A stretch of DNA of 64,000 bases from Siphonodentalium dalli (Eukaryota > Mollusca > Scaphopoda > Gadilida > Siphonodentaliidae), in NCBI GenBank assembly GCA_032622095.1, contig CP136061.1, positions 35,963,797-36,027,796 of the forward strand, written 5' to 3'. The first letter of the stretch is position 1; each line of letters starts with the position of its first letter. The translations under genes and the position numbers were made by a program. Below are positions 17,808 to 63,588 of this stretch, one piece after another. The notes below the pieces were generated by a model, which was given only the letters and a program-made list of their open reading frames with translations, did not search any database and had not been told where the DNA came from.

Positions 17808-20800
17808 CTGAAAGCAGCAAATGAGATATGAGAGAAGTTTCTTGTATCCACAGAATCCACGTGGGGCAAAAAACATTCGTTTCGGAAAACATAACGACTA
17901 GGATTAGGATTATTATTGAATAGCGAATTAAGTTAGCATGAATATCGTCCTGCAAACAGGGGGGGGGGGGGGGGTCTGAATTTTTTTCAGACACGTATGC
18001 TGATTTTTTCCTTTCGACCTTTGTTGAGACCCACCCACCCCCGCGTCCTAAATTTGTTTCGTTTTCGGCAGATTTTTCCAGACCATTTTGGACACCCACC
18101 CCCTTTTAACACTAACACAGATTTGCGGGGGAAAATTCACTGTGAACAGCTGAGTCAAAAAGACTTGCAGGGAAAATTTTGAGTTGCGGAAAAAAAAGTT
18201 GTTGGTCACCACCCACCCACCCCGGCATACGTGCCCGGAACCCCCCCTGCTGCAGACTGAACTTTGTTGTGGTGTCTCATCCGCCCCCCCCCTCCGAACG
18301 AACTTTTGTCAGAACTTTCAACACTTGGAAATTTCATACCTGGCACAACACTAGTTGCATATTGTCCAACCTTATAAGCGGGATATCAGGTTGGACATTT
18401 GCAACACTTGGAAAGTTTGAGGCCAGCCAGTCCTAGGATATTCAATTTTAATATTCCGATTTCAAAATGTTCTCACACCGGACCCAACCATGAACTTTTC
18501 ATCTCAAAATGTTCTCATGCACGGCCACACGATTGCTGAGCCATTCAGAATTGGCTACCACCCATGCATGTGAGGGAGCAGTTGGGAAACATCAAAGCTA
18601 GAATCATATAGCTACTTGCCACATCCATGTACCATTTGTATTCACATCGATAATTTCTTCCAGCGTAACTGTCAAGGGCGTCATCTGGCGAATCGCCAAA
18701 TTCACTACTATACAAATTTAGCTTAACATTACAGTCAAATGTTTGATACATACATAGCCTTGCAATCTATATTTACATCTTCCTTAAATATCACAATAGA
18801 TATAGATATGCACATATTTATGCTCGTTCTAATTGGTAATCCATAAACATACGCTGAAAGATGTTATTCGACATAATGCAAATTCAAATTGTTTTCTCAC
18901 CATGTACAAACGTTTCTGTTATCGCCTTTTGTCATCTTATAACAATGTATTGTCAATTTTGTACGGGAGAGGGACTACCTAAGTTGAAATAACTTGTGCC
19001 CCGATCCCTTTTGTATATTTATATACGAATAAAATATGTTTAAAGTAAAAGTAAGAAAAAGAGTTGGTTAATTTGGATCTGCCTACCATGTTGAACCGAA
19101 ACATTTATTTCTTGCTGAAAAATCGTTCTTGTTCACAGAAATATTGTTTTCCAAACATACTCATCAAACGGATATTGCAATAATGCTATCATTTGTAATC
19201 CAAAATGGTGAAGTAGTTATCTGACAAATATATGTAGAAAGAAGTTAACAGCAATTTGGAACTGTTTGCGAGATACTGGATTTTAGCTACCCCTCCTACA
19301 AACATTTATTTATTGATTTTAATGGGACCCAAAATGAATCGACTGCCGAAAGTTTGGTTCAGATACCGTTTAATTGATTATAGATGTGTTAAGGCTTCCA
19401 GACCCCAGTTAAACCAACATATTTTATTGATAACAGGTCATTCTGCATGCATTAACATCGATTTCGTAGTACTAAACTATTTGTTATAAAGAACACATGA
19501 CAAAATATATAACTCATATGGCTATGTACTTATCTGAACATCACACATGTAGAAAAAAATTGACAGATTTGTGACCGTTTTGGATTTTAGCTACCGCTCC
19601 CCCGAACACGTTTTGTTTATGATAACGACAGCAAATCCTTTGTTAAATGATTACAATGCGACCAAATCATGATCCATGTGATGAAAACCGGATCCATAGA
19701 CACCGCAAGCGTGGTTAAAGATGTCCTCAGGCTTCCGAACCACCAGTTACAAAACATTTGATTTATATAACATGTAATATTATATTAATATATAGCGATT
19801 TTGTAGAACTGAAGTAATTGTTATATGCGACACATTATATATACAAACATGTATATAGAGCAAAATCATTGATGTTGCCATATTAATTGTTAGTGCCCCT
19901 CTAAATCTACCAACATTTTGAGGAGATTACTCAAAATAAGCATCTAATGCTTGTTGTCAAATCCTCCTTTCCCTCCAATTCTCTCTACATATATACATGT
20001 GTCATGCTCATTAATTATATATTTTATTTGGGACGAAATAGATATTGCTTAAACCAGATCTATCAAAAATATAAAGACAAAAATGGATAATGTATACAAT
20101 GGGAGTCCGAGGTGGCAAGCGTTAGCTCAAACATGTTCTATGTTTTGAGGTCCCCCCTACACTATTATAAGTATTGAACACACCACGCACTGAAAGAATA
20201 TATGACAACGTGGACAACGGATAGTTATATAAGGAAATACACAATGTTTATGGGTGCGATGGTTACCGAATTAGTGTGGCTCTTGGCAAAACGCGACTGC
20301 ATGGAAAATAGGCTAATTTGCTATTTTTCGAGAACACTCTACCCGATTTAAAGCCTTGAATACAATACGAACTGAAGCGATATGCTGTCTTTTTTAACCG
20401 AGAGTGTGAACGGAAAGTAGTTCTAGCAGGGAATACATAATTTATATGCGTGGTTTGTTTTCCGAAAGCCGGTGTCGCTTTACACAAAGCGGCTGATAAA
20501 TAAGAAAGACGAATTTTCCGTGGGTTCCTTTAACCATTTACCCAACAAACCGGCCAAAAACGGCCAAATAAAGCTGCAACAGCCTAAATTATCTTGGGTC
20601 TGTCTCAATAAAACCATACAAATATGGATATCATTGGAACCGGCTCATTGACCACATTGTGATGGTTACAGTTATACCCTGTGCCAATGCATTCTCTTAT
20701 ATATGCGAGTCGACCATAGGTCGCCTCGCATATATAAGAGAATGCATTGGCCTAAAAACAATATTTTTTAAAACCTTTTTACCATTTTTTCGTACATTCT

Positions 20801-23800: not shown

Positions 23801-26800
23801 ATTGTGACAAAACATTAAACAACCCGCTCATCCCAATTAGGGCGGACGGGGGTCATACGAAATATTCCGCGCAGAGCGCTGGCGTAGGTGGGTGGTCCGG
23901 AGCCCAGAAAATAACCCTTTTTTCCCGGTGCTTGCAATATTTTTTCTGATGGTTTTTCATAATTATAGACAAACAATGAAACTCTTTTATACCATAATTG
24001 CCTGTTCTATTATGTGTATAACACCTATTTTGTAAATTTCACCTTTACACCCTACTGTGGGTATACAGCTTCCTACTGTGGGTATAAATTTCTACTGTGG
24101 GTGTAAATTTTCAAACGTAATTTCATGTGTTAAACGTGTATACCCATAATAGAACTACATCGTAGTTAGAAAAATAGTTCCTATGTCACATTCATTTAAA
24201 ATTGGAAGTTGTCATGATATCAATTAGATATGAGGAAAATTTCATGAATTTCAATCAAATGTAGCTTGCTAGTGCTATACTAACTAGGAAAAATATGAAT
24301 GATAATTCCATGTGACTGATCGCTCAGAAATAGGATGACGTCATGACGTTAATGTAAGCATCACTACGCGTGACGCACATTCCTTATATCGTCATGTTTG
24401 TGTCTCTGGGTGATATGAGAGGATACACATTCAAAGTAGTTGAATTCGCATACAAAATTACAAAAATAATAATTATGGCATAAATAAAATACACGCATAG
24501 TACCCGAGAGTATAAAATTTTCACCACTCGTCGCCAAAAGGCTCGTGGTTAAAACCACAATTCCACTCCTGGTGAAAATTTGGTATTCTCGGCTACGATG
24601 GGTGTATTCTATATCTATTACTCAGTAGCATAAATAACACCCTTTGGTAGGAGGGTGAATATATACATGCATTTTACAATACTGAATTTTAATTTGCCTT
24701 AAATTCTCCCAAAACTGATGTTATTGCCCATGTTATGGCGAACGGTTCCAAACTTACTGGAATAGACTTGATTGAGGTAGATTCTCTCAAAACGGATGCT
24801 ATTTTTCATGTTATGGCGAACGGTTCCAAACTTACTGGAATAGACTTGATCGAGGTAGATTCTCTTAAAACTGATGTTATTGTCCATGTTATGGCGAACG
24901 GTTACAAACTTACTGGAATAGACTTGATCGAGGTAGATTCTCTCAAAACTTATGTTATTGTAAATGTTATGGCGATCGGTTCCAAACTTACTGGAATAGA
25001 TTTGATCGAGGTAGATTCTCTCAAGACTGATGTTATTGCCCATGTTATGGCGATCGGTTCCAAACTTACTGGAATAGAATTGATCGAGGTAGATTCTCTC
25101 AAAACTGATGTTATTGTCCATGTTATGGCGAACGCTTCCAAACTTACTGGAATAGACTTGATACCTCGATCAAGTCTATTCCAGTAAGTTTGGAACCCTT
25201 CGCCATAACATGGGCAATAACATCAGTTTTGAGAGAATAATTTATATATATCTGGAGAAATATTTAGCAACAACAAAATAGAAATGATATATATATGTAT
25301 CATATCCTGTTAACCCTTTCAGTGCCAAGTCCGATTTTTGTGTCAACCCATATTTTCTTGATCATTTTTCAAATTTATTGATTATAATAATGTGATACAT
25401 TGATGGAAAGAGGTCTTAGAGCTCTTTCCATCAATGTATCACATTATTATAATCAATAAATTTGAAAAATGATCAAGGAAATATGGGTTGATACAAAAAT
25501 CGGACTTGGCACTGAAAGGGTTAATATATAATGATCATGAGATCAGTTGCCGTGAGATAACTAGATATGCTCCACTCAATTGTGGTCCAGTGGTTAGCGC
25601 GTTGGACTTGTCTTCGCTGTCAACACAGCGAGGCGAGTTCGCGGCTGGCTGGTGGTCTGTATTGAGTTTCCACACAGCAGTGGCTTGGCCGACTTGAGCG
25701 ATGTGCAATTGTTGGATTGTACACTGTTTGAATCTCGCGCCAAGTTGTGACCCTTGAGCAAGGTCGCTCGTACTGTGTCTGCTTTGCACCACCCATGCAT
25801 TACAAGGGTACCTGATAATGAGCAGTGAAAGATCTTGTCAGTATGCTAGCCATATGGTATCCTCGCATACTCCCGGCTGTACCTCCCCCTGTCCCCGGGG
25901 AGCAGTAGATGGTTACTGAATGTTCAGGCTCATCAGGGTAATAATTGTAAAACTTTGAGCGCGTTGGGCCTCATGGGAAAGGCGCTTTACAAATGCTATA
26001 CATTATTATTTAATTAATGCAGATATGATACCATATGATAAGTGTGCGATGGCTTATACCATTGGTGACCCAATGCCAGATATAATCAAGAATTGTTCGA
26101 TAGCAGAATAGAACAGGGCAGAATAATCAGTCTAAACGTGGACCCATTGGCTATCAAAAATAGCACGGAAGGGAATCACGTGAGAACCACGCATTCAAAA
26201 TGGCCGAAGCGAGTGCAAACGCACAAAAACATAACATACGAGGAACTGACACAAAACATAGCATTTTGACTGTTACGAACATATGATAGTTTATTTTTTC
26301 AACAAGCTGATACCTCAATTGTTCGCAAATACTGAGTAGTTTTCTATAACATTCTGACCAAAGTTGCCAGTCTGGAGGTTCGTGAAATACACAAGTCCAT
26401 ATGCTTTGGTCAGAATGATTGAGCAAACAACTGTGAATTTGGACACAGATGAGGGATCAGCTTGTTTGCAAACTAGTATAGGATATGCTTGCAGCTGCCA
26501 AAGTACTATGTAATATATCATTATCCTAGTTTATTACCCTTTCCTTGTTTCTGGTGGTGTTTGCAATTACCTTGGCCATTTTGAATGCGTGATAATCATG
26601 AACTCTAAACCACGTGATTCCCCACCGTGAATAGGGACGGTGATCTAACGTATGCAGTACAGAATGTTTACAGAATATAAACAATACAAGATACTAGTAG
26701 AACAATCGAATTCTCGGAAACCATGGGTGTTATGCAAATAATTGTTACTATCGCTTGAAATCAACAAAGGTGAACCTCTCAAGTGAGTCAGACCTTTAAA

Positions 26801-29800
26801 TTAAAATTTTAATTGCAAATTAGCAAAGTCAAATCTTGGTCATGCACGCTGATAAATATGATATCGGCTACTTTATCTGCATCATATAGTTTATCACTGA
26901 GAGATTTGAAGGCATTAATCAGCATTAAGGCTAAATGTTCCAATACTTAGCACACAAAAGTTAGGAGTTGTCATTTAAAAATCTGCTATATGTGTTAACA
27001 TCATGCAAAAGGAGGGTTGGGTCCCCAATTTGTCGGAGGAACGAAAATTTGTTTGGAACGTAAGGTGGTGATGGGTCCTTGATTGGATGGAATTTATTCA
27101 CCCCGCTCGGATTATTTTTGCAGATGACCCCCCCCCCCCCGATTACGCACCTCATTTTCGGATTAAAAGCTATGGATTATGCGCGTAAGCGAATCTGGGT
27201 AGAGTTGTGAATAATTTTAAGTCCAATTATTTAATAAATGTGAAAACGGCTTCCCAGTGATCGCACTCTAAAGTTAATTTAATTGGATGCGTGTCCTTGT
27301 GCAAACTGTTGACTGACTATGTGAATGGAAATGTTTGCACGATTTCTTTTGATTGATTGATTGATTTTTATTTGTACAATAACAAATGATTTAACAACAA
27401 AATTATGAACAAGTATATGATAAGTATTGTACAGGAGCAGCATGACCATAGTTGGTCGTCTTCCTGCTGCCCCGGAATGATATATATACATAAGGATGGC
27501 GGATGAATTTAAAGATGTATTCAGGGTTTGATACCTTTAGATACGGCACCAATATATTTTATAAAAATCTATTTCTGGGAAAGCCACTAGCTTTGTGGCA
27601 CTGAACAGTTTTACTATACGCAGAGTCGACACAATTTCATAGGTTATAAAATTATCAACAAAAAAGCAAACAAAATCTGATCTGTCAATTTAATTGTCCC
27701 TCAAGTATTCCACTGAATTACATTAATTCTAGACTTGACTGATTATTTTCCCCAACGCAAATTTGTGTTATGCATTATGGTGCTTATCAAGCTAGAGTGT
27801 TTACACGATATCAATATCCCTGAATACATCGTTAAGTATATGTGCTATATACATGCTGTTCCAGACTTGAACGCGAAGCTGAAATTAAAGAAACACAAAC
27901 TTTATTTAGGGCATACTAGACTAAGTGTATACGTAATGTGGTTGCCTTGTTCCAATTCAAAGGATTAAAACAAGGTAACCGAGAAGGGCGGTGGATTCAG
28001 GGAGGATATATATACGGTTAACCAAAGTTGGCTTTATATAATGCTAAGACGTGAAGCTAATACTTTTGTTTTTGTTTGTTTGTTTGTTTGTTTTTATTTT
28101 TAATGTTGACATATATAACACGCTCTACCGGTGCATTTATTTGTAAATGAGTACGTTGATAATATGTGATTCGTTAGACTCTTTTTAAAGTTATGTCTAT
28201 ATTTACAATCTTTTATTATTTTTATCTAAGGGGTTCCAAATGTCCGGAAAATCGTGTTTTGGGAGAGCTGCAGAAAAACAAGTTCTCGGCTTTTTCAACC
28301 TTATGGTATTAGTTCTTCTGGACTTAACATTGTTGGCATACTCAAAAGAATTTGCGAAAGATTTAGGCAGAATGTTTCGTGTCCAGTCATGCATAAATAA
28401 AGAAACATTTACAAAGTGCAAATCTTTGAATTTTAATATCCGCTCTCGTTTGAAAAGGGGTTCGGTATGGCATCTGTATTTAGCATTGCACATAATACGG
28501 ATTGCTTTTTTCTGTAGAGTAGTGATTGTGCCAATTTGACTGGCATTTCCCCATATCTGTATACCATATGTTAAATGACTGTGCACCAGTGAATAATAAA
28601 GTATTGTTCTCGATTTCTTAGGCAAAAAGCGTTTAACTTTGTTCAGTAGATAGATAGAGCGATTGAGCTTGTTACGAAGTGAGGAAATATGGTATTTAAA
28701 AGTTAGATTTTCATCAATTGTGATACCTAGAAATTTTATCGATGTCTCCTGCATGTTGTTACCAACTCTGATTAAATCATCGCCATTCAACTTGAGTCTA
28801 AAGTTTCTCCATTTATTATCATTGTTTTTGGGTGGATCAGCATAAATTTACTTTTGGAAGGGTTTATTGATAGTTTATTACAACAGCACCAGTTAAAACA
28901 GTTGGACAGTTCAGCATTTGCAATTCTTCGCATTCTATCACCGTTGTGGTCGGATGCATAAAGAGTGGTGTCATCGGCAAAAGATAACAATGGTAACGAT
29001 GTACAATTAGGCATATCGTTTACGTAAATTAGAAAAAGTGTCGGCCCAAGAACCGATCCTTGTGGGACACCACACGTAATGTTGTTCAAATAAGATCTTT
29101 TCCCTAGAAAATCTACATACTGTTTTCTCTCAGTTAGATAGCTTCTAAACCACTGATGTGATATTCCTCTTATTCCGTAGTGTTCTAATTTTTTCAATAA
29201 TATAGTATGGTGTCAAATGCCTTAGAGAGATCTAGAAAAATTGCTAGTGTTGAGTCCGTAGTTGGCTTATCGTTATTTTCGGCTATATGATTAAGGAGAT
29301 GCACCAATGGGTGTACTGTTGAATGATTCTTTCTAAACCCAAATTGATTTTCGTGTAAGATGTGATGTTTAGAGAGAAATGAAAATATTCGTTTTTGCAT
29401 TAATTTTTCTAATATTTTTGAAAATACAGGAAGAATACTGATAGGCCTGTAATTTTTTATTTCATCACGGGAATTACTTTTATGAAGTGGAACAACTTTT
29501 GCGATTTTCATTTTTTCTGGGAAATTTCCGTGTTTAAAAGACAAGTTGAATATATAAGCTAATACACCCGCGGTTTCATTGATTGTCTTCTTCATTAATT
29601 TTGATGATATACTATCGACATCGGTACTGCTTTTGCTGAGAATACTATTGGAGACGTTGAGTACTTCATTGCTGTCAGTCGGAAATATATAAAATGTTTT
29701 TGGATTGGTACTACTCAAGTAGTCGGTAAAGGATTTATTAGAATCAATTTTGACTGCATCGCTCGTTTTTTGTCCTATCTGAGAAAAGTAATCATTGAAT

Positions 29801-42000: not shown

Positions 42001-45000
42001 TGGGTACCCGTTTCAAGGTCAATGTCACCTGAGGCGGACAAACTGACCCGACGAAAATCTCCCCCGTCCCTTGGAAGCCCTAAGTACGAAATCCCCAGTT
42101 TCCGAGACGGTCGTACGATATCCTAACGTTCAATACGTTATGTGAATTTAGAGTTGTCCTTCCTGCATCGGGTAATACATTACATGTCTGGACACAGACA
42201 TAAGAATCACACTACACAAAGACAGACTTATAGCAGGGCGATAGGGTGAAGGAGTGGTCGCACGGGCTCGCGAATGGTCCGATGACACTGCCCGTGGCTT
42301 TTTACCTTAGATAGCAAGTTTGGGCTCAATCGATCGAGCCGTTTTCGAGTCTATAAAGGATAGACAGATATATATATACATTCCGTAGTTCTCAAAATAT
42401 ATAGTAGATCAGGCGACCTAATTCGACCCGAACAGAACCATGAGAATATGCAACTGGAAATTATTTTTTGCAAATATGAGCAAATAAATTGGTTTGATTC
42501 ACTTAACATATCGCGACTTTAATTTGCCTAATGGGTAATAACTATAGTGATAGAATACATTTCATACTTATTTGAAATTTTAGTCCCGAGCACATGTTTG
42601 CAGTGAATCAGGAAATAAGAATTTGCAGTCTCATTGTCAAGGTCAATTTCTTCTTTTTTTTCTAATACATTTACCGTCTATAATGTTTTTTTCTGTATGT
42701 TTTTTTTTCAGTTATGCCAACTTGTGTGCTGTTAACTACAAATTTTTGATTGAGATAAATTTATTTTCCAGTTGAAGTCCCCTGGGGTCCTCTGAACACA
42801 ACAACTGGAAAATAGAAAACGACTGTCTGTGGCTATGATCGCAGAAAGCTTTTTCAAAGTATATACCAGTTCATATAAATGGACAAATGTCTTTCTACAG
42901 CCCGTTCTCCTGAACATAAGCTCATATTGAACTTATTTCAACAACACAAATAATCCTATTTCGGTATAAATTGAATCTGAAGCACCAGGCGTACGCTCTT
43001 TATGGTGTGTTTTCACTGTGACCCGCGAAATAAAACGGAATAACGGGTTTAAGTGACTTTGGGCTTATTTCAGAGTCAAATAAGTCCAATACGAACAAGA
43101 CCACATGCCATTGGAAAACAAATTCAAGTTGATTTCAAATTGAAACTTCCTCCACCATTTACTGTTTGAAACATACAGTCTATGTGACAATCAACGTTGC
43201 AAAGACTGCGAATAATGAATTAAAGACATACGCGGGCTTAATTTAGTGAACCAAACTTAGTCCGAGGACTATATCTTTATTGGAGTAATGTTTCAATAAA
43301 CTAATTATAAGATTGTAGAAATTTCCAAGATTATCAGCAGTCGAAAATTCCAAAGTTGTGGCTGTTCGAAGCTTAAAGGTACTCAATCCGATTCGATGGT
43401 CCCCATATCATCAGATTCCAACAACAACAATTGTTTTGTGAAATTCCGCTCAGTTATCAGAATCGATTCATTAACCAAAAATAATGTCAAATATAGTATA
43501 CAATTGCGCAAAACCTGTTATTTATCGACATTTTGTTCAACGAAATTTTGCCGGTTTGTCAAATAACTGACCCAAAAAAACAATTAATATTAGATTTATC
43601 CATCTTCATCCGCAAATTTGGTCCGAGACAGTCTTCTCGTTTACTGGGCCACTAAATATTCCAGGTGGTGAAAAATAATAGATTTAAAAAATCGATATCT
43701 GTTTACTCTGAGCTTTGATGGGTGGGTTCATCGACTCGAATCAAATATTATTTACCCCCGAAGCCAAATAAATAGTAATTGAGGGGCGCTTAATCGGATA
43801 GAGTACCTTTAACGGATGTTCCATTTCAGAGAACACAACATATGAACTGAGCTCAAATGTAAATATTTACTCTTTTGTTCGGGATGAATTTGGCGGGCAA
43901 TAAAGAAAGTCGCTGAATATAATATAGTTTGAAAATTAAGAACGGTATTCGTTCATTGTTGAATATTTATTACATGTATGTACATACAGCTATATCGGTT
44001 TCGGCACATCTCGCCTTTTCAAAAGCTTGGAGTCACTGATGAAAGTGTGTACTCATCTTGGAGTCTGTAAGACAGTTCATGGTGAATCACGTGATAATTA
44101 CATTTAATTGAATTAAGTTATACGAGGAACCTCATTAAATTGTTATGGCTTTGACAGAGAGACGTGCTCAGACGTTCGTTTCTAACGGCGCTTGTATCAT
44201 TGAACGCTTGGACATAATGGTCATTTTATTTCAGTTTGATACCGTTTAATCTGTTGATAGGTTTGTGGTGGCGATTCCATCTTAATCTAATGTTTTTCTC
44301 CTTAATATCACTTGCCATCTTTAATGGTGACATTCTATAAGAAGCATGTGTATTTGCGCTATATTTATGTTGCTTCATTGTGTTCGACTGAACACTCAAA
44401 GTTCGTGCCGCGTGTTTCATTTGTCCAACTTTCGAAAGAACGTCCATAACAACGTGTATAGTTACTGTGAACACAAATTATCATGAATCAGACTGATCAA
44501 CAGGCTGATGAACATGGATAATTTTATTTGGAATAAATAAAATGTGTTACCCGATTACAACATTATTAATTTGTTTCTGCTTTATAACAATGGTAATGAC
44601 ATAGCATTGTCACGAGAAGATTAGATGTGATCAGGGCATTTGTTTACAAATTACATCGGGCTGGATGCCAGGGGTGCTATTCACCGGCTGGGTTTATAAT
44701 ATAGTCCAGGTAGTTTTACGAGGCGACGCTCAATGCGAAGCTATCGGTGGACATATCGATGGGAAGACATCGCCGCGCCATATAGGATTATCCAATCAAG
44801 GTGATTGGCGTCAATCATAGATTGACCACCGGTCACATAAACATGCTGCGTGTAGCAGTACACGTTTGTACACATTTCAACAATGAGCAACCGAGGAAAA
44901 GGACGTGGGGCAAAATATACCACCGACGACATGAGGGGGTCTACAAACAAAATCCGTATATAGGGCCGGGTTGGGTGGGTGGTCCAGAGGCCGAAACAAT

Positions 45001-48000
45001 CGTGCTTGTAATTATTTTTCCAAAATGGGTTTTTTTCAAACAATTTACAAGTACTGACCATGTAATGTTGTTTGTAAGCATGCTAGTATCATGTTTGTTG
45101 GCATATGGCTATATGGACATCTATAGTGACTATTTAGCCTCAGATTTAGCAACATTCTGGATTTCACAGGATCCCGTCCCACTTCTCAGTGGAAAACCGT
45201 AATTTAGTAAAAAAAATTAATGTATTACCCAGTGTAAATATGTTTTGGCAACTCTAATGCGTGTTGACTCACGATTGAGTTCATTAAAGCATACCATATA
45301 TTACCCGAATAAAAGTAATAAAATAAAAAAAACTGTATCACAAATACTACATGGTGAATACTCAATGATGACTAGATATCATTGACCCGATTGTTGCATA
45401 ACATGAAATTGAAAAGGGTGTCTCATAAATTTCTAATGTCTGAAATACTGTCTTGTTCTGGCATGCAATCAATTTCATTCCTTCTGGTTATTTCTCATCT
45501 TTTTAATGATTGCAAGTAATGTTAATTTGCAGCACTTATCCAAATAAAACTGAATTGGTTATAATGAATGGCCGTTACTGTTTATTGTTCAGACAATCCC
45601 AACTGAAGGTGACGCTATTCTCCTTGAATTGACGAACTTCATCTTGAAGCTTAAATACTGCTCAACAAGACTAAACTACAATACTAATTGTATACTGTTA
45701 TCGCTTACAAATATATGAACTGAAATAATGTGATGCATTCAGATGCTTTGAGAAATGACATTCTTCAATGTCTTCAAAGTTCAAACTAAAATCAAGAATA
45801 AAATCTGACTGAGACTATACTGCAGACTCTAGCGCACAAATATACATACAAATGGTTGAGTTATAATAATGCAAAATGTGTTTACGGATGGAACCAAGTT
45901 GGTAGCTCTGGTATGCATCGACAGGCAAAACCTGTGATATGCAGTAATATCTGCACACATCATTCCCGTATCATTCATGTCTATCACCATACCAAACCAC
46001 TTCAAAATTCGACAACCGACACTTCAACTTATATGGCAAAAACTTTGTACGGATATAATTTCATAAACAGGGCCCATGGATAACTCTGGTAGGCATTGGT
46101 ACTGACAATCCGTGATATTATGCATATTCGTTCCCCATTTCTGGTCCGTCACATGTCATAGAGCATCAAAGTATGACAACCGACTCTTGAGTTATGATGC
46201 AAAATGTTTGTACGGACGGACACACGGACGGCTCGAGACGTCAACTATATACCCGCCGACTAATATCGGGGGTATAATAACCATATATCTATGTGTATAC
46301 CTAACCAACACAATTCCCCACCCTGGTAAATAAGACTAAAGAGTTCTTTGATCATGCACAAATAATTGTAGAACCCCTGACCTGTTTACTACTATTTACA
46401 CTGGCCAGTGTTCTCTGTCAGACTAAACACGCTCGATATATTAAGGCTATAATGGCGGTCTAGGGCAATTTGTGACATACAGTGTACCCACACAATGCTT
46501 TATTATTGTTGTTAGATACTGGAAACACCAGGAAACACCTGGAAATACAGTTTATTTTTCGCAGTTAACACAGTTATTGAAGAACGGCTAAAAAACTCTG
46601 AAATTTTGATAAAAACATGAGAAAGGGGGTGGGTCCCTAACATTTGGAGGAACAAATTTGCACAAATGGGGTGGTGGGTTCCTCGGGGTCGGAAAAAAAC
46701 TTTTTGAGCCCTATATGTGCGATTGTTTTCCAGACCCCCCCCCACTGCCGACGAGCGTAACACTTTTTTTGGGCATTGTGGAGAGAAGAATCAAAATATT
46801 AAAGAACAAAGAAACCTGCACCATTCACCATCGCCTGAAAAATGATGCATGGAAAGAAATAGCAGGGAAATATCCAAACTGCAGAACCAAAACACAAACA
46901 AAATTCTTCTGAGACGTTATCTTCTTGGCTCTTCATTTTCACACTGTGCTAATTAAAAAAACCTCATTAATATCATTGAAACTCATTCTGCAGATATATA
47001 AACGAAAGCATGAGTCTCCACACAATTATACCCAAAAATTATACCGCTATACATGCCGATTGTGGCCGGTGAGTGTTCGTGAATTAGTCGTAAGACGGCG
47101 TCAATTGACAGGTGACAAATCTGATAGATTGGATCAATCACACCATCGACAGCGTGTGTCGTTTGCGCTAAAGCAAAGATACCTTTGCGTTCAGCCGCTA
47201 CCATATAAACTACCTGGTTTATAAAATAGTCTCGCTTGGTGAATAGCACCCCTGGAGTCTGGACTGGAGTTAATAATTTTACCGGAGATCGCTATCCAAT
47301 CGCTTTGGATTCGACTCTGGGTGTGTTGATAATTATTGAGTTGTTATTGAGTCATTTTAAACGTAAATTGTAGCCAAACAAGTAATTTTTGTTATCATGG
47401 ATAGTTAATTGCTGAAAATTTAAGTTGAGGTGTAAATATTTATTTTCTGAAAGTTTGCTTGGTCGTTGACAATTTCGGCCAATTTATTTTCGGCCCATCA
47501 ACCAAATTCGGAGATCGTCCAACGGAAAATCCTGTTGTGGCAATTAATTTTCTGAGATGGATTAATAGTAGATAGTTGAAAATGAAGTGTTATCTTTGTA
47601 ATTATAATCCATCAACGTCGTTGGTAGGTTGATCTATGAGCCTATAAATCGATCAGTAGACGAATAACATACTTAGTATAATCCGCTTCGTGGAATTATA
47701 CAGTATGTTATTCGTCGACTGATCGATCTATAGGCTCATAGATCAACCGAAAAACGACGTTGATGGCATATATACATTGATATTACTATATATATTTATA
47801 GAGAATCTCCAACGAGTTATGTTGGGATATAAGATTTTATGAAACGAGTTTGAAAAATTTCTACGAGTCGTAGAAAATACAATGTTTTGGAGCTCACTCT
47901 TTCAAATGGTATATGATATGGCATATATTTTATATAATGTGATTCGGGGGGGGGGGGGGGTTCTGGGGGGGGGGGGAGGTAGAAAATTAAATGGGCCTTT

Positions 48001-50456: not shown

Positions 50457-52170
50457 TTTTACAGCAAACAAGTTGATCGGGGAGTTAGGTTTGATACTAA
50501 CTGAACAGTACGAATTATGACAAGGTCCTATACATTTGTACTTCGTCCCCGCCAGTTGCTGTTTGTGGGCGGAAGGAACGTCTGCCCGTTGTATAGTTGC
50601 TAATTAAACTCGATAACGTGCACGGAAACTAAGTACAAAATACTCAAGTCATGCCTCATGGTCATATTCATCGCCCAGGTGAATTCGGTTGGTTGGTCTC
50701 AAGATTAATAGTTTATGAACATACCATCGAATCGATTCGGAAATGTCCCCCTCGGTTGTTTCTCACATAATTACAAATAGATTTTCATTATAATTATTGA
50801 CAAGCATATAATCTCCACAGTAAAATACATCTCAAGACCAAGAAACACATAGTTCATACTTCCTTCTGGCCCATATAGTGACTCACTCGGTAGGTGCATA
50901 GCACATTTACTTAGTAAATCAGTCAGTTGAAATGAATGTCTAGTATACATTAGCCAAACTAATGCGAGGATCCTGATTATGAACAGTTCTTGGTATATAA
51001 TTGTCTTGTATTGTGCGTTCTCACACAGAGAGGTATTGACCAGTTGATTTTATCTTGAGAGGACTGTCTCAATATTCATATTTTATGAACATAGTACCCA
51101 ATCGATTCGGAATTACCCCCTTGGTTATTTCTCGATTAATTACAAATAGTTTCCATTGTTCTCATCGCTGAGTATATACTATACCCATACACACTACACA
51201 ATATATAGAAAGCAAGAAGTACATAATTCATACAACCATACTTCTCTGTGCCCCTATAAAGTAACTCACTCAGTAATCAGTAAGTTCATAGCGCATTTAA
51301 TTAAAGACATATGTTGGACTTATTTCATTGAATAAAACGAAGTAGTTAGTATCCAGACACTATCCCCATTGGAAGAATGTAGCAATGAAACAAGATCGTC
51401 GAAAATTTCAACCACATCGAATGTACATTTCAGATAACACAACGGTTGAACTACGCACATATGAAAATATTTACTACTTTAACGGGGCGCATTATTGGGC
51501 ATAAACATTACGACAATGGTCGTGCCAATAATAGTCATTGTGTGTAATTCGTTTATAATAATGATGCTGTTTTCCGACTATGTGGATATCAGATAACGGA
51601 AAATAACTTATTTGGGCATAATTATTTGTTATTCCGTTCGGAACACCTGGGTGGAGTGTTTCACATCACTTTAAGCTGACGAAACCAACTAGCGATAACG
51701 AAAAGATTCATTTTAGGCGCGGATTCGTCCACACAAAAGGAGGATTGCATGACTCGTGTATCTGGGCAAATTGTTCTGTTGCTTATTGTGGGTCGGTGGT
51801 TTCAACGATCAGCGTATTGATCTCCCATGCAGTGTTCTTGATGTGAACATATTGTATTGTAACCCAATAAATACATAACTTACATATACATTGTAATAGT
51901 GAATAGTATGTGTGCACGGGAGATAGGACCACAAGTAACATAACAAAGCACTTGTTGCAGAATTTGGCTGTTATATCTTAAGTCGAATGCGGATTAATCT
52001 CCCCTGTCAGAATAGTGAGCTAAATTCAAATCGGGCGGGGCATAATTAAGTATACTGTCTTGTAAACTACTCGGCTTTGAGAGTTTTTACGCAGATCACT
52101 GTTATTTTTGACTGCATATAGTGTGCCCTGAATGATAAACATGTAACCAAGCTAATACATTGGGCCTATA
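50457..52170. other. Upstream flank of the lectin gene, with direct repeats
   Basis: A ~360-bp direct repeat is recognisable: about 50690-50900 and 51050-51310 share 'tttatgaacata', 'atcgattcgga', 'ttacaaatag' and 'agtaactcactc'-like sequence. It sits within 1 kb of the gene's 5' end and could include regulatory DNA; nothing specific was recognised. The remainder is plain AT-rich sequence. Confidence 0.4.
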
Positions 52171-52174
52171 TATT

Positions 52175-52678
52175 ACCATTTGCCTGAAATTCTTGAACAT
52201 TACAACCGAATTCTTGATTCAGAATTAAACTCACCTGACCAATTAGATCAACAGGAAACCGATCCATGTAGAATATACGATTCAATTGTAACTTTTGTAA
52301 GTGCAATATCAAATGCATCCAAAACAACCCTGCCAAAAAAGAAATTCAATAAATGCCTGAAACCCTTCTGGAACGAAAATTTGAAAACCATGCATATGAA
52401 TATGCGGACTCTTCGGCAAACTTGGGTGAATGAAGGCAGGCCTCGCGCAGATACTCACTTTGAAAGTTATATAAAATATAAACATGCGAAATGTGACTTC
52501 CGTAGAGAATATAGAAAAGCATCTTGTAAATACCTGGCCGAACAAAACGATGAAATTGATAAACGTGCTCAAATTGATCAGAACTATTTATTCCGTATTT
52601 TACACACGAAACGTCAGAAAAATCACATCGATAAGAACGCATTTTTTTCATATGAGGGACAAACTCTTCGTCGTGATC
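52175..52678 (+). pseudogene. Truncated LINE ORF2 fragment (plus strand), first part
   Basis: About 165 codons match the linker between endonuclease and RT of the minus-strand LINE at 55306-59524: GRPRA, FRREYRKAS, QIDQNYLFR, NHIDKNAFF and YEG are shared. The fragment begins abruptly (5' truncated) and is cut by the element at 52679; the last seven bases are the duplication CGTGATC. Its frame resumes at 54435. Confidence 0.8.
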
Positions 52679-54427
52679 CAGGGGGGGGGGGTCGCGCACA
52701 AAAATTCCATATATAGGGCGGGGGTGGGTGGGTCATTTGGACCCGGAAAAAATGCGTAAATGACCAAAAACTAACTACCATTTAGGGGTGTATGTATGCT
52801 GATGTATGTCAAAATTAACGTACCAGATTTCGACGGATGAAAGATATATTATATATATATAAACAAATCATATAACAAACATTAAAACACAAGAACAAAC
52901 ATTTATAATATGTATATCCAAGATAGCCTTTCAATTGTATGTCAAAGTGTATGTTATAGCTATATATATACACATGTGCATCCCTTCAAGGGTTTGAACA
53001 AAATATAAAGCTGAGTGATGAATTTTTCAATTACTTTTGACAAATTTGTTAACTGTTATAACATAATTATATGCTGAGATACGATCAGTCGACAATGCTT
53101 GCATATAAGCATAATTATGAAATGATTACCATCTTCTGTTCTTAATCCACATAATGGATATTATTTGTTATCAAGATAAACTTGATGATACAAACAAAAA
53201 TAACAATTCCACTATATTCCACTGGTTTAAAACTATAAAACAAAATAACTCATACAAAAAGTTCATACTATGTGGATAACAATATGAAAGCTTAGCCTTT
53301 TGTGATATTAATTCAACCACAGTTATTATTCACAAGTCTAAGCTGTTACGTACTGTACAGATACATGTAGTAAGGTAGTATATCTGGAGTTCCAGTTATT
53401 TGACTGCCAATACATATGGTATTGTAATTATTAGTTGCTTGTTCATTATTGGTTGCTTTGATATTCAATTTAGGATATAGCAGGATAGAGCAATGTAACT
53501 ATAAAAGTAGCTTTTGGTATTAAAGTCTCAACTTATTCCACATGCAACATAAAGCTAGAATATAAACATGACTAATATGAACTTTGTTCTTGAAACTAAT
53601 TATAAATCATACTAACCTGGATCAAACTGCACAGGTAATCTATGCAACTCTCTTCATGCGAACTTTCTCAGAGTCACATATCTTAACTGGACAGTCTGAT
53701 CCAGGATGCTTGTTCTTATGTGTTTCCCTGCGATACGTCCAGTAAACCACGTTGCACAGGGCGCACCTACATGTATACGGACGGTTTGTACAAGGTGACC
53801 GTGGCTTGGATATCTCCGCTGGCTTCAAACTAAACTTTATACTCTGATAATAAGTTAATAATACTACCAATTCTTCACTAATATTGTTATATGTCAATCT
53901 GCACACCAACATGACATACATACATGTATTTAGACTGTGAGCTGCTGTGAGTGTGACTTTCCTTGGGTCCCATCATACCCATGTGCAGATATATATCACA
54001 GAAATAGGGGAGATGAAATTTGTTCTACCCCTATTACTACAGTATTACTATTGGGCATTGGCTCTAAAACATCTTATACTATTGTTATATAAAAGAATAT
54101 GGAGTTATTGAGGATATCAGTTTTTAAGTGCATGCATTCAGCATTTCCACATTTTATACTAATAGAATTATCTCCCTTTAGAGCAGTTTAGAGGTTTATT
54201 AAAATGCTGGGAATAGTATTAAATAATAAGAAATGGAACAATTCTTTGCTACGCTATGATTTGGTTTTTATTTTATGTTTTTTGTAAGATTTTGGGGGTG
54301 GGTCCCAAAAATTGGGCGGAAAAAAAAAAAAAAATGGCAGGTAGAGGGGTGGTGGGTCCCCGAGAGGGGCAAAAACATTTTGTTCGCCCTATATATGTAA
54401 AAAAAAATCCGCGACCCCCCCCCCCTG
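52679..54427 (+). mobile_element. G-capped 7-bp-TSD element, 1.75-kb copy
   Basis: It starts CAGGGGGGGGGGGGTCGCG and ends CGCGACCCCCCCC...CTG, flanked by an exact 7-bp duplication CGTGATC (52672-52678 and 54428-54434). Deleting the element and one duplicate restores the LINE reading frame, which proves the boundaries. Subterminal motifs: CATATATAGGGCG and GGGTGGGTGGGTC on the left; GGGTGGGTCCC, GGTGGTGGGTCCCC and CGCCCTATATATG on the right. The interior has no recognisable transposase, but a zinc-finger-like frame lies on the minus strand. Confidence 0.85.
53640..53830 (-). CDS. Possible zinc-finger-like exon inside the element
   Basis: The minus-strand frame ends at a stop at 53640 and includes TCRCALCNVVYWTYRRETHK and KNKHPGSDC. 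CALC followed by 11 residues and H-x3-H is close to a C2H2 finger but one residue short of the usual spacing. Splice sites are unclear. It could be a captured host exon, a fragment of the element's own DNA-binding protein, or chance. Confidence 0.25.
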
Positions 54428-54434
54428 CGTGATC

Positions 54435-55305
54435 ACGAAATTTCAGAAGGATGGGCATCTTACTTTGAAAAATTATTTTCGCCGCTATATAGACCCGACT
54501 TTGACACACAGCACTTCAACTATGTCAGTGAATTTGTTACGCGAAAAACCACCAGCGATCAGCATGGTGATAATTATAATGATATACTCTTTTGTGTAAC
54601 TCCACTTGAATTACTTTCTGTTTATCGCAGCCTGAGAGTTGGAAAAGCAACCGGTTGGGATGGCATATCGAATGAACACCTGATATATGGAAGCCATAAG
54701 TTAACTCAGACGGTATCTAATCTTATGACAGTCATGATTCAAACACAAATTATCCCTTCACATATGAAACGTGGTGTAGTCATAACACTATACAAAGGTG
54801 GTTCAAAATCCAGAACTGACTTTGATAGTTACAGAGCTATAACGCTGATGCCCACTTTATACAAGTTACTCGAAAAGATTTTACAAACTAGAATAGAATT
54901 ATACGCCCCAAAATTACTTAATGTACATCCGCTTCAACACGGTTTCCAAAAGGGCATAAGCGCAACAATGACGTAATATGTAATGAAAGAATGCTAACGG
55001 ATTGTTATACAAATTGCACACATGCGTATTCAGAGGAAACTTATTTCGATTGATGCGCGAACGTCTGATCAATGTAACCTGTTCCATTCGTCATAACAAC
55101 GTTTTCCCCAGGTGGTTTGATATGCGACATGGAGCCAGGCAGGGAGGAATCCTCTCGCCTTTGTACTGTATGATCTACGTTGACGAGTTGATACATATCC
55201 TTGCAAACTCGCCGTTTGGCTTAAACATGCTCGGTGTAAATTGTACGTCTCCGACACATGCAGACGATATGGTTCTGCTGTCTCTCAGCAAATCTGGTTT
55301 ATCAG
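54435..55305 (+). pseudogene. Truncated LINE ORF2 fragment (plus strand), second part (RT)
   Basis: Continues the frame from 52678: EISEGWASYFEKLFSPLY, then GWDGISNEHLIYGS, TLYKGG, SYRAITLMPTLYKLLEK and HGFQKGISATMT. In-frame stops follow near 54974 and 54991. About 27 codons are then deleted relative to the minus-strand copy, removing RT motif A with its catalytic aspartate. The frame picks up again near 54995 and retains RHGARQGGILSP and the HADDM box near 55256. It ends at 55305 where the opposite-strand LINE abuts. Non-functional. Confidence 0.85.
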
Positions 55306-55624
55306 CACTATATATATGACTTTATTTCCTCCGTAAACGAAGATATAGTGTATAAAATCACATACACATTATTACATAATTAACATAATTATACATTAAA
55401 CATATTCATTGGCATAATGTGCGTGAAAAAACAATATATCGAAAATGATTTGAGTATAATTCGCGACGAATACCAGCTATATACAATTGATTGTGGTTGC
55501 ATAATACAAGTATGCGTCTACATGTCCGTTATACATAGCAATTACACATATGATGTACAGTCATAGAGATATGGATATACAGTCGTATGTCACGGGTACG
55601 TATATATATAATTTTAATACAGAA
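55306..55624 (-). mobile_element. 3' UTR of the minus-strand LINE
   Basis: Follows the ORF2 stop at 55625. On the minus strand it ends GGAGGAAATAAAGTCATATA: an AATAAA signal some 13 bases before the junction with the plus-strand LINE fragment at about 55306. The short ATATATAG end replaces a long poly-A. Confidence 0.65.
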
Positions 55625-57770
55625 CTATGGAGGTACAGGCATAAATGATGATATGCTATCAACATATGCTTTCCATAGAGAATCTGATTTCCTAACGAAA
55701 AAATCGATCAATTCATTATCTATTTCGCGTATACAATGGTCAAGTTCAGCTATTCCGGATAATAGAACTCGCGTTTTGGATTCCGCATTCAAACTATCAT
55801 ATTGCATGTATACGTCTACATGAAATTCGTTTAATAGGTCAAATTCCAACATATTACGGTTATCACATATTGAGACACACTCGATTAATGCATGTCTGAC
55901 CAGATCATTGTATTTCCTGTCACACAATAGGCACGATTGTTCGTCCGTTTCAAGAATGGAAATAAGACGTGCTACAAGGAGATAAGAATCTTTATGCTTG
56001 GGATATATGTAACAGTTTTCCCATAGCCTAGACATGCATAATTTAGGCTGAAGTGCCGAGTAACGGTTTAATCGAGTACCATCGCCTTTGCTACATTCCC
56101 ATTCATCTCTATTTATATTTAACCATGATGTCTTCGTTATATTTTTCCATGATAATTTGTTGGGAAAGGTCACATTTAATAAGTATTTCTCGAAATATTC
56201 GGTCATTCCATATTTGTCCAATGTACAAATAATATCAACCATGAAGTTAGAATGTGAAGCTGTAGGAAACATTAGGTATTGGTATAACCGTGTAATAAAT
56301 ACATCTTTTGCGGTTTTGTTCGACGAAAGATTGCACATTGAACCAATGAATGACAGTTTACGTTTTTCTATTAATGATACCATTGACGACATACCGACTA
56401 ATCCTTGAGCTATAACTGTTTTTGTGCGATTCTGAAGACCCTGATAATATTTTAGACAGAAACGGTGCGTTCTCTCGAGACGGTCGCATAGAGTGTTATT
56501 CACACACCATAAAAGTTCAGATCCGTATAAACCTTTTGGAATGACCACCGAATAATAAATCAACGAACAACTTTTTGGTGTAATGCCACCGGGGTATATT
56601 CCTGCGTTGGTTAACATCATGAATGTACTTCGGGTTTTATCACATATCCGATCAATGAAGACAGAATTAAAATCGTATTTATCGAGTGGAATACCAAGGT
56701 GGGTAACTTCTGTACATTCTTGTAAAATAGTTGTCCCTAAGTTCCAGACGCGATGTTGACGAGAGAACTCTGACTTTTTTTCGTTAAATACTATTACCGA
56801 GCATTTATTGGAATTATACTTATATCGCCACTTTTTTCTGTATTCAAAACACATATCAATAAGAGCTGATAATCCGACACTGTTGAGTGATAATAAAACC
56901 ATGTCATCAGCATGTGTTGGGCATGTGCAATTTACTCCGATCATTTGTAGGCCATATGGGGAATTTGCGAGAGTACATATCAACTCGTCAACATAGACCA
57001 TGTAGTAAAATGGGGAAAGAATACTTCCCTGACGAGCCCCTTGACGAACGTCAAACCACCTAGATGAGGAATTGTTATAACGAATAGAACATGTAACATT
57101 TGTCAACAATTCATTAATGAGACAAAACAAATTTCCTTTAAAACCGCGTTTATCTAATTTATATAACAATCCGTTAATCCAGACGGTATCGAAAGCCTTC
57201 CAGACATCTAAAAATAAGCTGTATAATTTTTGTTTACTAGCGGACACATAGTCAATACATTCCTTCATTACGTAAGATGTCATGGTTGCGCTTACACCTT
57301 TTTGAAAGCCATGTTGAAGCGGTTGCACTTGTATTAAATTGGGTGCATAAGATTCCAATCGAGTTTGTATAAGTTTTGCAAGTAACTTGTATAAAACAGG
57401 CATCAACGTTATAACCCTATAGCTATCAAAATCTGTCCTGGGTTTTTTGCCACCTTTAAATAATGTAACGATTATACCGCGTTTAATTTGACTCGGGATC
57501 TTCTGTGTATTAATTATATTAGTTAAAAGTTTAGAAATCGCCAACGTCAATGTGTTACTTCCGTATAATAAATGTTCATTGGATATCCCGTCCCATCCAG
57601 CCGCTTTCCCCGTACTTAGACCCCGATATATTTGATTCAGTTCATCAGTTGATACAGGAAAAATTATGCGATTGTCAATCTCACTGCCTTGTTTACTGGC
57701 CATTGTACGTGCAATAAATGCATTAACACAGTGGAAGTGATTGAAATCAAAGTCTGATTGGTAATTGGTA
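55625..57770 (-). pseudogene. LINE ORF2, RT and C-terminal part
   Basis: A long frame open to the stop at 55625. Positions in the 757-codon open stretch that starts at 57898: GWDGISNEHLLYGS (101-114), HGFQKGVSATMT (196-207), motif A DVWKAFDTVW (231-240), RQGARQGSILSP (285-296), the catalytic HADDM (329-333), and a C-terminal C-x2-C-x9-H-x4-C finger (Cys656, 659, His669, Cys674). The HADD box and C-terminal finger differ from the CR1-like LINE at 28-31 kb; the clade is not assigned. The frame is joined to the endonuclease only across a 7-bp duplication at 57757-57770. Otherwise it looks undamaged, suggesting a young copy. Confidence 0.85.
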
Positions 57771-59294
57771 TAGCGGTGAGTACAGATTTTCAAAATACGA
57801 TGCCCAGCCTTCAACAACATCAAGATCATTCCGTAGAACTTTCCCTTCATAACAAAAGAATGCATTTTTATCGATATGATTTCTCTGTCGCTTTGCATGT
57901 ATCACGCGAAATAGATAATTCTGATCGATCTGAGGGCGTTCGTCAATTTCATTATTTAATTCGGATATATAATTTTCGGACGCTTTTCTGTACTCTCTAC
58001 GGAAATCACGTTTTGCTAATTTATATTGAGTGTAACTATTACATTGCGTACTTGCTCGAGGTCGACCATCACGTATCCATTGTTTCCGGAGATCACGCAT
58101 ATACTTGTGCTTATCTTTCAAACAATCTCCCCAATATGGTTTCAGGCGTTTAGTATATGACTTATTTGGTAAACATGATTCAGATACTGTTGATATTACA
58201 CGTGCAATTGACTGGTAAACTTCAGATATGTCTGTATCATCAGTGTATATGATTTTGTGTGCTGTTAGTTCAACATCAAGACTTTGTTTGTAAAGTTCGA
58301 GAATTTCTGGTTCAGATTTAACTTTACGCCAATTTATGGTTTTGTCTGTTTCTCTTTCGGCTATATACGAAGATTGACTGCGTAGCTGGAATTTCAAATG
58401 TAATGTAACAGGTCTATGATTAGATACGTTAATGGCGTCATCATCTAAAACGTGTACCTCATGAATAAATGGAATAAATGTGGATGGAATAAAAATGTGA
58501 TCGACAATTATTGTTCCTTCGTGTAATTGGCAGTAATCACCGAAAGGAATGCATGTAGATAGAGGATCATCTTCACAGAATTCATAATTCACAGATACCA
58601 TCTCGATTCGCTTAACCATTTTCTTGAATATCATATTTCGTTCATCAGATTTGTCAAATTGTCCGTTTGTGTCTCCCATTACGATTACGTTACCATATGA
58701 TTTGTAGGTGTCACATAGGTCACCAAGCTTTTTCGCATACTCTTCATAATATTCTATGGTATAGTTAGTAGAGGGTAGATATACTTGAAGGAGATATATA
58801 AAACTTTCACCCGTCATCCTAATTTGTATCCCTATAATACGATCATCATTAATTGCAAGCGGACATATACGATTTGAAAATTTCTTATGCCATAGCAAGG
58901 CAACACCACCACTAGGTCTACCTCTCTTGTTGGGAATATTTTGGCGAGAATCGCATACGGCATGATACTCATAGTCCTTGTTAAGCGAATCGAGGAAATC
59001 AAGATCGCATTGATAAAGCCAATGCTCACTTAAGCCTACAATATCATAAACGCCATTCTTGAGCAATGATGCCAAGTAATGACCCGAAGATGTGATACCT
59101 GTACAGTTCAAATTGAGTAGGTTTAATTCAGGAGATTCCATCACGCGTTTGCATTCAACTACTGTTAATGTGATACTATTAGTGGTTACATTTATACTAG
59201 TAATTAGATATATTAATGTCAACAGCAATGTCGTATAACGCATTGTTGAATAATGTATATGCAATGTAAATACAACATAAATAATTGAACACAA
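57757..59294 (-). pseudogene. LINE ORF2, endonuclease part
   Basis: The likely start is the ATG near 59141 (MESPELN), since upstream ATGs precede only a hydrophobic, non-conserved stretch. Endonuclease landmarks: LNLNCTG, LSEHWL, GRPSGGVALLW, VYLPS, MGDTNG and VSNHRPV (the usual SDH is SNH here). The linker NHIDKNAFFCYEG is shared with the plus-strand fragment. The frame ends early because ATTGGTA is duplicated in tandem (57757-57763, 57764-57770); with one copy the endonuclease and RT frames would be continuous. Confidence 0.85.
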
Positions 59295-59524: not shown

Positions 59525-60024
59525 CATACTAGAGTAGCTCATGATGGTTTTGTATGCACTTGTATGTCCAGAGCAAAACTCTTCACGAATCCACTAATAG
59601 AAGGTAAACGAACAATATTTGGTTGGTAACACATTTCCCATTGACGGCGAAATGGGTCAAATGGCCACGGCCCTTTTTGCGCGAAGTACTACCACCCGTC
59701 GTGACTATATCTCCAGAACCGTTGGACATAGGGGGTCGTGTGACCACTCAAAATGTGCGGAATGGCCACGTTATGGGGGGTCAGTAATACATTTTCATAT
59801 CCAAAAGTCAATGGTTTTTAAGATAATTGCCAAAAACCAAAAAAATCCATTTTTGAGGGCCTGAACCCCAATATTGGGATTCAGCACTTTTATCTCAAAG
59901 TTGAGCCCCCAATTAGAATTTTATTGAGCTATATCCATCGGTGCCACATACAGGTATCATTTCTGATATTTTCTGTACCATTATCGGATGGGATTGACCT
60001 TCAGGGAGCTCTTGACCCTGAACA
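59525..60024 (+). repeat. Left arm of a ~0.5-kb inverted repeat
   Basis: Matches the reverse complement of about 63097-63588 at high identity. The first ~100 bp (to a TAA at 59627-59629) is coding-like in the plus direction, with CTCMSRAKLFTNPL and RTIFGW, the same C-terminus as the frame at 63487-64000. The rest is non-coding and includes 'ccaaaagtcaatggtttttaagataattgcc'. Confidence 0.8.
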
Positions 60025-63016: not shown

Positions 63017-63588
63017 GGTTTTTGGCAATTATCTTAAAAACCATTGACTTTTGGATATGAAAATGTATTACTGACCCCCCCCCCCATAATGTGGATTTTC
63101 AGGGTCAAGAGCTCCTTGAAGGTCAATCCCATCCGATAATTGTACAGAAATTATACCTATATGTGGCACCGGTGGATATAGATAAATAAAATTCTAATTG
63201 GGATCTCAGCTTTAAGATAAAAGTGCTGAACCCCAAAATTGGGGTTCAGGCCCTCAAAAATGGATTTCTTTTGGTTTTTGGCAATTATCTTAAAAACCAT
63301 TGACTTTTGGATATGAAAATGTATTACTGACCCCTGCACAGATTCCGCACTGATTCCGCACAGTTTGAGTGGTCACACGACCCCCTATGTCCAACGGTTC
63401 TGGAGATATAGTCACGACGGGTGGTAGTACTTCGCGCAAAAAGGGGCGTGGCAATTTGACCCATTTCGCCGTCAATGGGAAATGTGTTACCAACCAAATA
63501 TTGTTCGTGTACCTTCAATTAGTGGATTCGTGAAGAGTTTTGCTCTGGACATACAAGTGCATACAAAACCACCATGAGCTACTAGAGT
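63017..63588 (-). repeat. Right arm of the inverted repeat, with an extra internal copy
   Basis: 63097-63588 is the counterpart of 59525-60024. The segment 'ttttggcaattatcttaaaaaccattgacttttggatatg' occurs twice here (near 63020 and 63281) but once in the left arm. A C run at about 63077-63086 follows the outer copy. Confidence 0.8.

Follow-up and report, generated by a model that had tools for sequence, protein, structure and literature searches.

Maize Ac/Ds has 11-bp inverted repeats and repeated subterminal hexamers that are bound by the transposase, and its Ds members, Ds2 and Ds-l4 in particular, keep shared ends around unrelated filler in copies that have no complete transposase; its duplicates are 8 bp long, its motif is AAACGG, and G-run tips go unmentioned in the excerpt cited (PMC3260210). 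Hermes, an autonomous hAT element, has 17-bp imperfect inverted repeats and subterminal repeats (motif AAGT/AAGC) that are asymmetric between the two ends, and makes 8-bp duplicates at nTnnnnAn targets (PMC10368747). The duplicates of hAT elements are usually 8 bp long, with 5, 6 and 7 bp in named sublineages, the 7-bp case including hAT7 of rust fungi, which encodes a transposase and often a TET/JBP gene (PMC12730594). In Galileo, a P-superfamily element, the duplicates are mostly 7 bp and sometimes 8 bp long, with a target preference for GTATTAC; most copies have no transposase, many of them consisting of a pair of ends spaced by DNA whose origin is unknown, and the most complete copy has inverted repeats of hundreds of bp (PMC4168063). 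Kyakuja (KDZ) elements of fungi make 7-bp duplicates, have CA..TG termini and, as described in the part cited, are without terminal inverted repeats (PMC12730594), and Dada, which occurs in molluscs, makes 6-7-bp duplicates and has subterminal repeats, is without terminal inverted repeats and inserts in snRNA and tRNA genes, the elements with clear termini sitting in small-RNA genes (PMC3706591). For transposons that have no transposase, duplication length serves as a superfamily label, and the extraction of hAT families annotated '7-bp TSD' is a worked example in the account of Repbase Update (PMC4455052).

In this article, I describe four related DNA transposons, A to D, that make up one family and generate 7-bp target duplicates, all lying in one window, by which I mean the whole stretch of 64,000 nucleotides that was analysed (Table 1). 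Like Ac/Ds, and especially Ds2 and Ds-l4, they combine short inverted repeats and repeated subterminal motifs with shared ends, unrelated filler and copies lacking a complete transposase; like Hermes, they have short imperfect inverted repeats and an asymmetric subterminal layout; and unlike either, they duplicate 7 bp and have other subterminal motifs. They resemble hAT7 in duplicate length, which is the extent of that comparison, and Galileo in both duplicate length and composition, although their inverted repeats are short and none of their four target sites resembles GTATTAC. Duplicate length and CA..TG tips are shared with Kyakuja, duplicate length and subterminal repeats with Dada, and from both of these they differ in possessing terminal inverted repeats. 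A length of 7 bp is uncommon, yet already documented, and since it is in print for Galileo, hAT7, Kyakuja and Dada (6-7), length alone marks no new superfamily; an earlier note on this DNA had read the 7 bp as a possible sign of an undescribed or little-known superfamily, a proposal that is therefore not borne out. A to D could well form a new family, though one of an ordinary kind.

Table 1. Positions in the window of the four elements, their flanking duplicates, subterminal motifs and associated features
Feature	Position	Strand	Remarks
Element A	52679..54427	+	1749 bp; first 18 bases are the reverse complement of the last 18 (perfect terminal inverted repeats, CAGGGGGGGGGGGTCGCG); no coding domain recognised
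A, left target duplicate CGTGATC	52672..52678	.	exact match to 54428-54434
A, right target duplicate	54428..54434	.	exact match to 52672-52678
A, left subterminal motif TGGGTGG	52725..52731	+	left tip 47 bp away
A, right subterminal motif TGGGTCC	54299..54305	+	right tip 129 bp away
A, right subterminal motif TGGGTCC	54353..54359	+	right tip 75 bp away
A, 110-aa open frame	53643..53972	-	CxxC...HxxxH pattern
Second LINE copy, unoccupied counterpart of A target site	57600..58100	-	alignment of the joined A flanks
Element B	44930..46747	+	1818 bp; ends CATGAGGGGGTCT / AGACCCCCCCCCACTG
B, left target duplicate CCGACGA	44923..44929	.	exact match
B, right target duplicate	46748..46754	.	exact match
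B, left subterminal motif, two overlapping TGGGTGG	44972..44982	+	tip 43 and 47 bp away
B, right subterminal motif TGGGTCC	46630..46636	+	tip 118 bp away
B, right subterminal motif TGGGTTC	46675..46681	+	tip 73 bp away
Element C	17957..18249	-	miniature member of 293 bp; orientation opposite to that of A, B and D
C, adjoining duplicate CTGCAAA	17950..17956	.	6/7 against CTGCAGA
C, other adjoining duplicate CTGCAGA	18250..18256	.	6/7 against CTGCAAA
Element D	23843..27141	+	about 3.3 kb, more decayed; internal repeats and probable later insertions
D, left decayed duplicate ATTAGGG	23836..23842	.	5/7 against ATTACGC; boundary chosen by CGG/CCG ends
D, right decayed duplicate ATTACGC	27142..27148	.	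5/7 against ATTAGGG; boundary chosen

Insertions and their target sites

Elements A and B are insertions with a 7-bp target duplicate. The earlier note had argued for A from exact CGTGATC duplicates and from a LINE reading frame that is restored upon its removal, and both observations hold: when the flanks of A are joined with a single duplicate (...GQTLRRDHEISEGWASYFEKLF...), they align at the DNA level with the minus-strand LINE copy at 57.6-58.1 kb without a gap over the junction, the first gap lying 55 bases downstream of it. The limits given there, 52672-54434, are correct with the duplicates counted in, the element proper being 52679-54427. For B, the exact CCGACGA duplicates and the end at 46747 were likewise right, but the start had been placed ten bases late, at 44940 instead of 44930. 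The one-mismatch pair reported at C (6/7) is present as described, and D does share the end anatomy of the others in a more decayed state, with a duplicate of 5/7 at the boundary set by its CGG/CCG ends. The window contains two related LINE copies in opposite orientation, 52156-55316 and 55628-59294, the first of which is broken by A.

The target of B is a Myb/SANT-like frame, which the element splits. To its right, a match to positions 14-54 of the PF13873 profile (E 1.2e-4; score 22.4 bits, cut-off 21.7) begins 15 bases past the duplicate, and to its left the apparent start of the same domain can be discerned by eye. The joined frame needs a one-base shift, downstream, to reach the Myb frame; this shift probably lies in a T7 tract and may reflect decay or sequence error, and a 45-residue peptide over the joined flanks gave no match. 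The gene remnant at 46755-46909, split by B and carrying the one-base frame shift, could, I presume, come from a PIF/Harbinger element.

The flanks of C, once joined, offer no helpful reading frame, and the C-type lectin frame that adjoins it, which scores above the Pfam cut-off, lies outside the element. Both ends of C were recovered by profiles of the A, B and D ends that had been built without it (E 0.0018 and 0.00016), and because each was matched on the strand opposite to the corresponding ends of the other three, C is an inverted member. Two profiles of the A, B and D ends gave an E of 0.13 or worse elsewhere in the window, and a stretch at 63053-63085 brought up by a profile of all ends (E 0.013) is part of a different element.

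Duplicate length and shared ends

With the boundaries held fixed, the flanking heptamers agree at 7/7 (A), 7/7 (B), 6/7 (C) and 5/7 (D) positions, and 7 is the best length in all four elements among lengths of 4-12, the best result at any other length being 3/4 (B, at a length of 4). Of 200,000 random position pairs drawn from the same window, 33 reach 7/7, 508 reach 6/7 or better and 3,711 reach 5/7 or better. I also searched the window for every combination of a CA-G4 end and a C4-TG end that lie 150-4000 bp from each other and have an identical stretch of 4-11 bases on either side. The end pattern was composed with A and B already in view, so their tips were not judged blindly, but the duplicate length was. 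From 17 left-like and 18 right-like ends came two pairs only, A and B, both at 7 bp, and 100 Markov-4 simulated windows yielded none when tested at 7 bp only. This search missed C because its duplicate is inexact and D because its tips differ. Another scan of the window, for exact 10-base inverted repeats with exact flanking duplicates of 6-10 bases, returned ten rows with A among them; B does not appear there, since the inverted repeats at its tips are inexact. The other rows comprise six whose duplicates are palindromic, two that fall in a simple repeat of the CATATA type at 34.1-34.9 kb, and 33531-33693, which on reading is a plain direct repeat.

The window is rich in G and C runs, 27 of them of six or more, so one might attribute the whole pattern to chance, with short repeats lying beside homopolymers by accident. 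The window scan, the simulations, the unoccupied LINE site and the motif anatomy speak otherwise, and the probability of such a coincidence is negligible; for A and B, it is refuted by the unoccupied LINE site together with the scan and simulations.

The tips of A and B run from CA and a G-run to a C-run and TG, and C and D share the end anatomy, the tips of D being read as CGG/CCG, while the interiors of the four show no similarity beyond short words. Inside the tips lies the motif TGGGT(G/C/T)(G/C), which occurs 44 times in the window over both strands; the terminal 150 bp of A-D (1,193 bp) hold 13 matches against 0.29 expected from the rate elsewhere. The earlier note had claimed subterminal motifs common to all copies and running one way, and for this motif that is true, as 13/13 terminal matches point in the same direction along the elements, a count to be read with the motif having been picked after inspection and the orientation of C derived from profiles in which the motif is present; for A, B and D by themselves the count is 10/10. 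The particular sequences then proposed are not family-wide: ATATAGGGC occurs at 4/8 ends only, both ends of A and B, and is absent from the ends of C and D, and TATATAGGGC occurs at 3/8 ends, none of them in C or D. In this layout the left end has a single G-rich subterminal site and the right end a pair of them, all on one element strand; the left sites lie at +47 (A), +43/+47 (B), +46 or +47 depending on the choice of start (D) and +31/+35 (C), and the right sites at -75, -73, -70 and -81 and again at -129, -118, -124 and -145 in A, B, D and C, the last of these fitting the motif only loosely and not being among its strict matches. Such a one-way arrangement provides a testable handle on how a transposase discriminates left from right ends.

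The Repbase rule asks for the same duplicate length and at most one mismatch in the first 11 bp (PMC4455052). Compared with A, the right tips of B, C and D pass and their left tips fail, with 3 (B), 2 (C) and 4 (D) mismatches in 11 bases. Folding of the four DNA ends of A and B gave z-scores of -1.17 to 0.54, which is no structure signal, and the predicted folds contain no G-quadruplex, a type of structure that lies outside that folding test.

Coding capacity and candidate transposases

A Pfam scan with an E limit of 10 covered all 67 unspliced open frames of at least 45 aa in A-D, including all 15 in A, and matched no transposase domain, whether hAT, THAP/P, KDZ, MULE or any other. A hAT transposase would have an RNase H fold with the hAT dimerisation region and a BED finger, and one of the P superfamily would be a GTP-binding enzyme with a THAP domain. 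Near the elements, only the flanking C-type lectin (by C) and Myb/SANT (by B) matches exceed the cut-off. Matches inside the elements are all below it; the strongest, to E 1.3e-4, fall in the 78-bp tandem array of D and name mutually unrelated families, and I take these to be chance on repetitive sequence. The 110-aa frame of A, which has a finger-like pattern, found no match in Pfam and none in the PDB by sequence, and its AlphaFold2 model from one sequence is uninformative (mean pLDDT 40.2); it may be captured filler, or transposase debris or an exon. Viral contigs contained two stretches that fit this pattern, neither of which was confirmed as a relative, and no match to the left-end anatomy.

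With no recognisable transposase in A-D, the copies are most likely non-autonomous and moved in trans. The reading that I favour, at a probability of about 0.5, is that they are Ds-like elements mobilised by a transposase most likely of the hAT type that makes a 7-bp stagger. They appear to be built like maize Ds, with some 130 bp common at each end and unrelated filler for the remainder; an enzyme encoded elsewhere would recognise the CAG-Gn-TC tips and the one-way subterminal sites, cut both ends and join them to target strands 7 bp apart instead of the usual 8, and gap repair would then leave the 7-bp duplicate. The tips are of a kind that I take to resemble those of hAT elements. It is the Ds-like plan and the Hermes-like asymmetric subterminal layout that place a hAT-type enzyme first and a P-type enzyme second. 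The elements have the short terminal inverted repeats (18 bp in A) and repeated subterminal motifs of hAT, and their duplicates are not the usual 8 bp but 7 bp in A and B, with 7 as the best fit in C and D. This is the length of hAT7, whose members are recognised by 7-bp duplicates together with a transposase of the hAT7 clade; A-D show no recognisable transposase. That most hAT elements make 8-bp duplicates and that the printed hAT7 elements are fungal would argue against this assignment. The open-access literature searched, which leaves Repbase entries aside, brought up no paper on a 7-bp hAT element in an animal. In favour of hAT, a curated bivalve library holds 133 autonomous hAT elements and, in the part cited, none listed as P (PMC10294476), a comparison that is relevant only for a mollusc host. 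Should the hAT reading be true, hAT-like ends with 7-bp duplicates would make the length label misleading in animals too, as it is in rust fungi.

The enzyme behind this anatomy could instead be a THAP-domain transposase from the P superfamily, of the Galileo/1360 type, which is possible but doubtful. The 7- or 8-bp duplicates of this superfamily agree with A-D, those of Galileo being mostly 7 bp and sometimes 8 (PMC4168063), and P elements have internal transposase-binding sites that are unequally distant from the inverted repeats, as in A-D, but they and the zebrafish THAP9 elements make 8-bp duplicates, and P elements also carry subterminal inverted repeats (PMC7776569) where the sites of A-D run one way; nor does any of the 67 frames contain a THAP or P domain. 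That no transposase was found in these frames, and that tips capped by G-runs, G-rich subterminal sites running one way and 7-bp duplicates were not encountered in combination in the open-access literature searched (Repbase and Dfam being outside it), would also suit a superfamily that is not yet described. I consider this unlikely, given that precedents exist for 7-bp duplicates, for elements that carry filler between shared ends and for asymmetric subterminal repeats, and that four non-autonomous copies would be expected to lack a transposase. Mobilisation of a Kyakuja-like (KDZ) kind seems more improbable still: the 7-bp duplicates and CA..TG termini of the fungal elements are found in A and B, with C at 6/7, but the described elements are without the terminal inverted repeats that A-D possess (PMC12730594), and the KDZ domain is unmatched in the 67 frames.

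I would give very little weight to MULE- or Dada-related mobilisation. Papers on Mutator-type elements do come up in literature searches for 7-bp duplicates, but no MULE domain is matched in the 67 frames, and Dada, for all its 6-7-bp duplicates and its occurrence in molluscs, has no terminal inverted repeats and targets small-RNA genes (PMC3706591), unlike A-D. Membership of Dada, which the earlier note had raised, founders on these same two points: A and B have inverted repeats, and A sits in a LINE frame and B in the Myb/SANT-like frame. Small-RNA genes were sought in the window, with 0 matches in Rfam and no tRNA from ARAGORN in its bacterial setting. Elements of the piggyBac type duplicate TTAA and those of the Tc1-mariner type TA, and neither accounts for CGTGATC or CCGACGA. 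A bolder conjecture, to which I lend only slight credence, is that the Ds-like elements of this window represent an animal transposon lineage, be it a branch of hAT with 7-bp duplicates or a separate superfamily, with G-run tips of variable length, whose enzyme would read one-way G-rich sites, one on the left and two on the right, and would tell the ends apart by site number and orientation and not by inverted symmetry.

Other elements in the window

Several structures lie inside element D. At 24622-25240 there is a 78-bp tandem array, seen as six 229-nt matches that overlap and are offset by 78 bp each, with an inverted copy after it, and at 25295-25539 there is a palindromic insertion, TTAACCCTTTCAGTGCC...GGCACTGAAAGGGTTAA, with 118-nt arms at 93%, which is bounded by TTAA and which I take to resemble piggyBac-like miniature elements. 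Between the approximate limits 25570 and 26010, a tRNA-like box-A sequence, GTGGTCCAGTGGTTAGCGCGTTGGACT, is visible by eye, and this part is probably a SINE inside D; an imperfect foldback at 26165-26625 has ends, placed by eye, near GGAATCACGTG / CACGTGATTCC and inner arms of 117 nt at 70%.

Elsewhere, a foldback-like element at 59527-63589 has inverted arms (59527-59763 and 63353-63589, 237 nt at 97%), further internal inverted blocks and a 62-nt sequence that is directly repeated without a mismatch at 63017 and 63273; its inner G-runs are superficially like the tips of A-D, but it is a different element. The stretches 318-490 and 20693-20890 have the same 10-base inverted repeat, TCTCTTATAT, adjoining ATGCAT, and are perhaps copies of one miniature element. 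A PAN-like frame in the window scores just below the Pfam cut-off, and with the LINEs and the C-type lectin frame it suggests that the host is an animal. A weak hint of a mollusc comes from TACATGTA, which is common in molluscs and occurs 16 times in the window against 2.2 expected.
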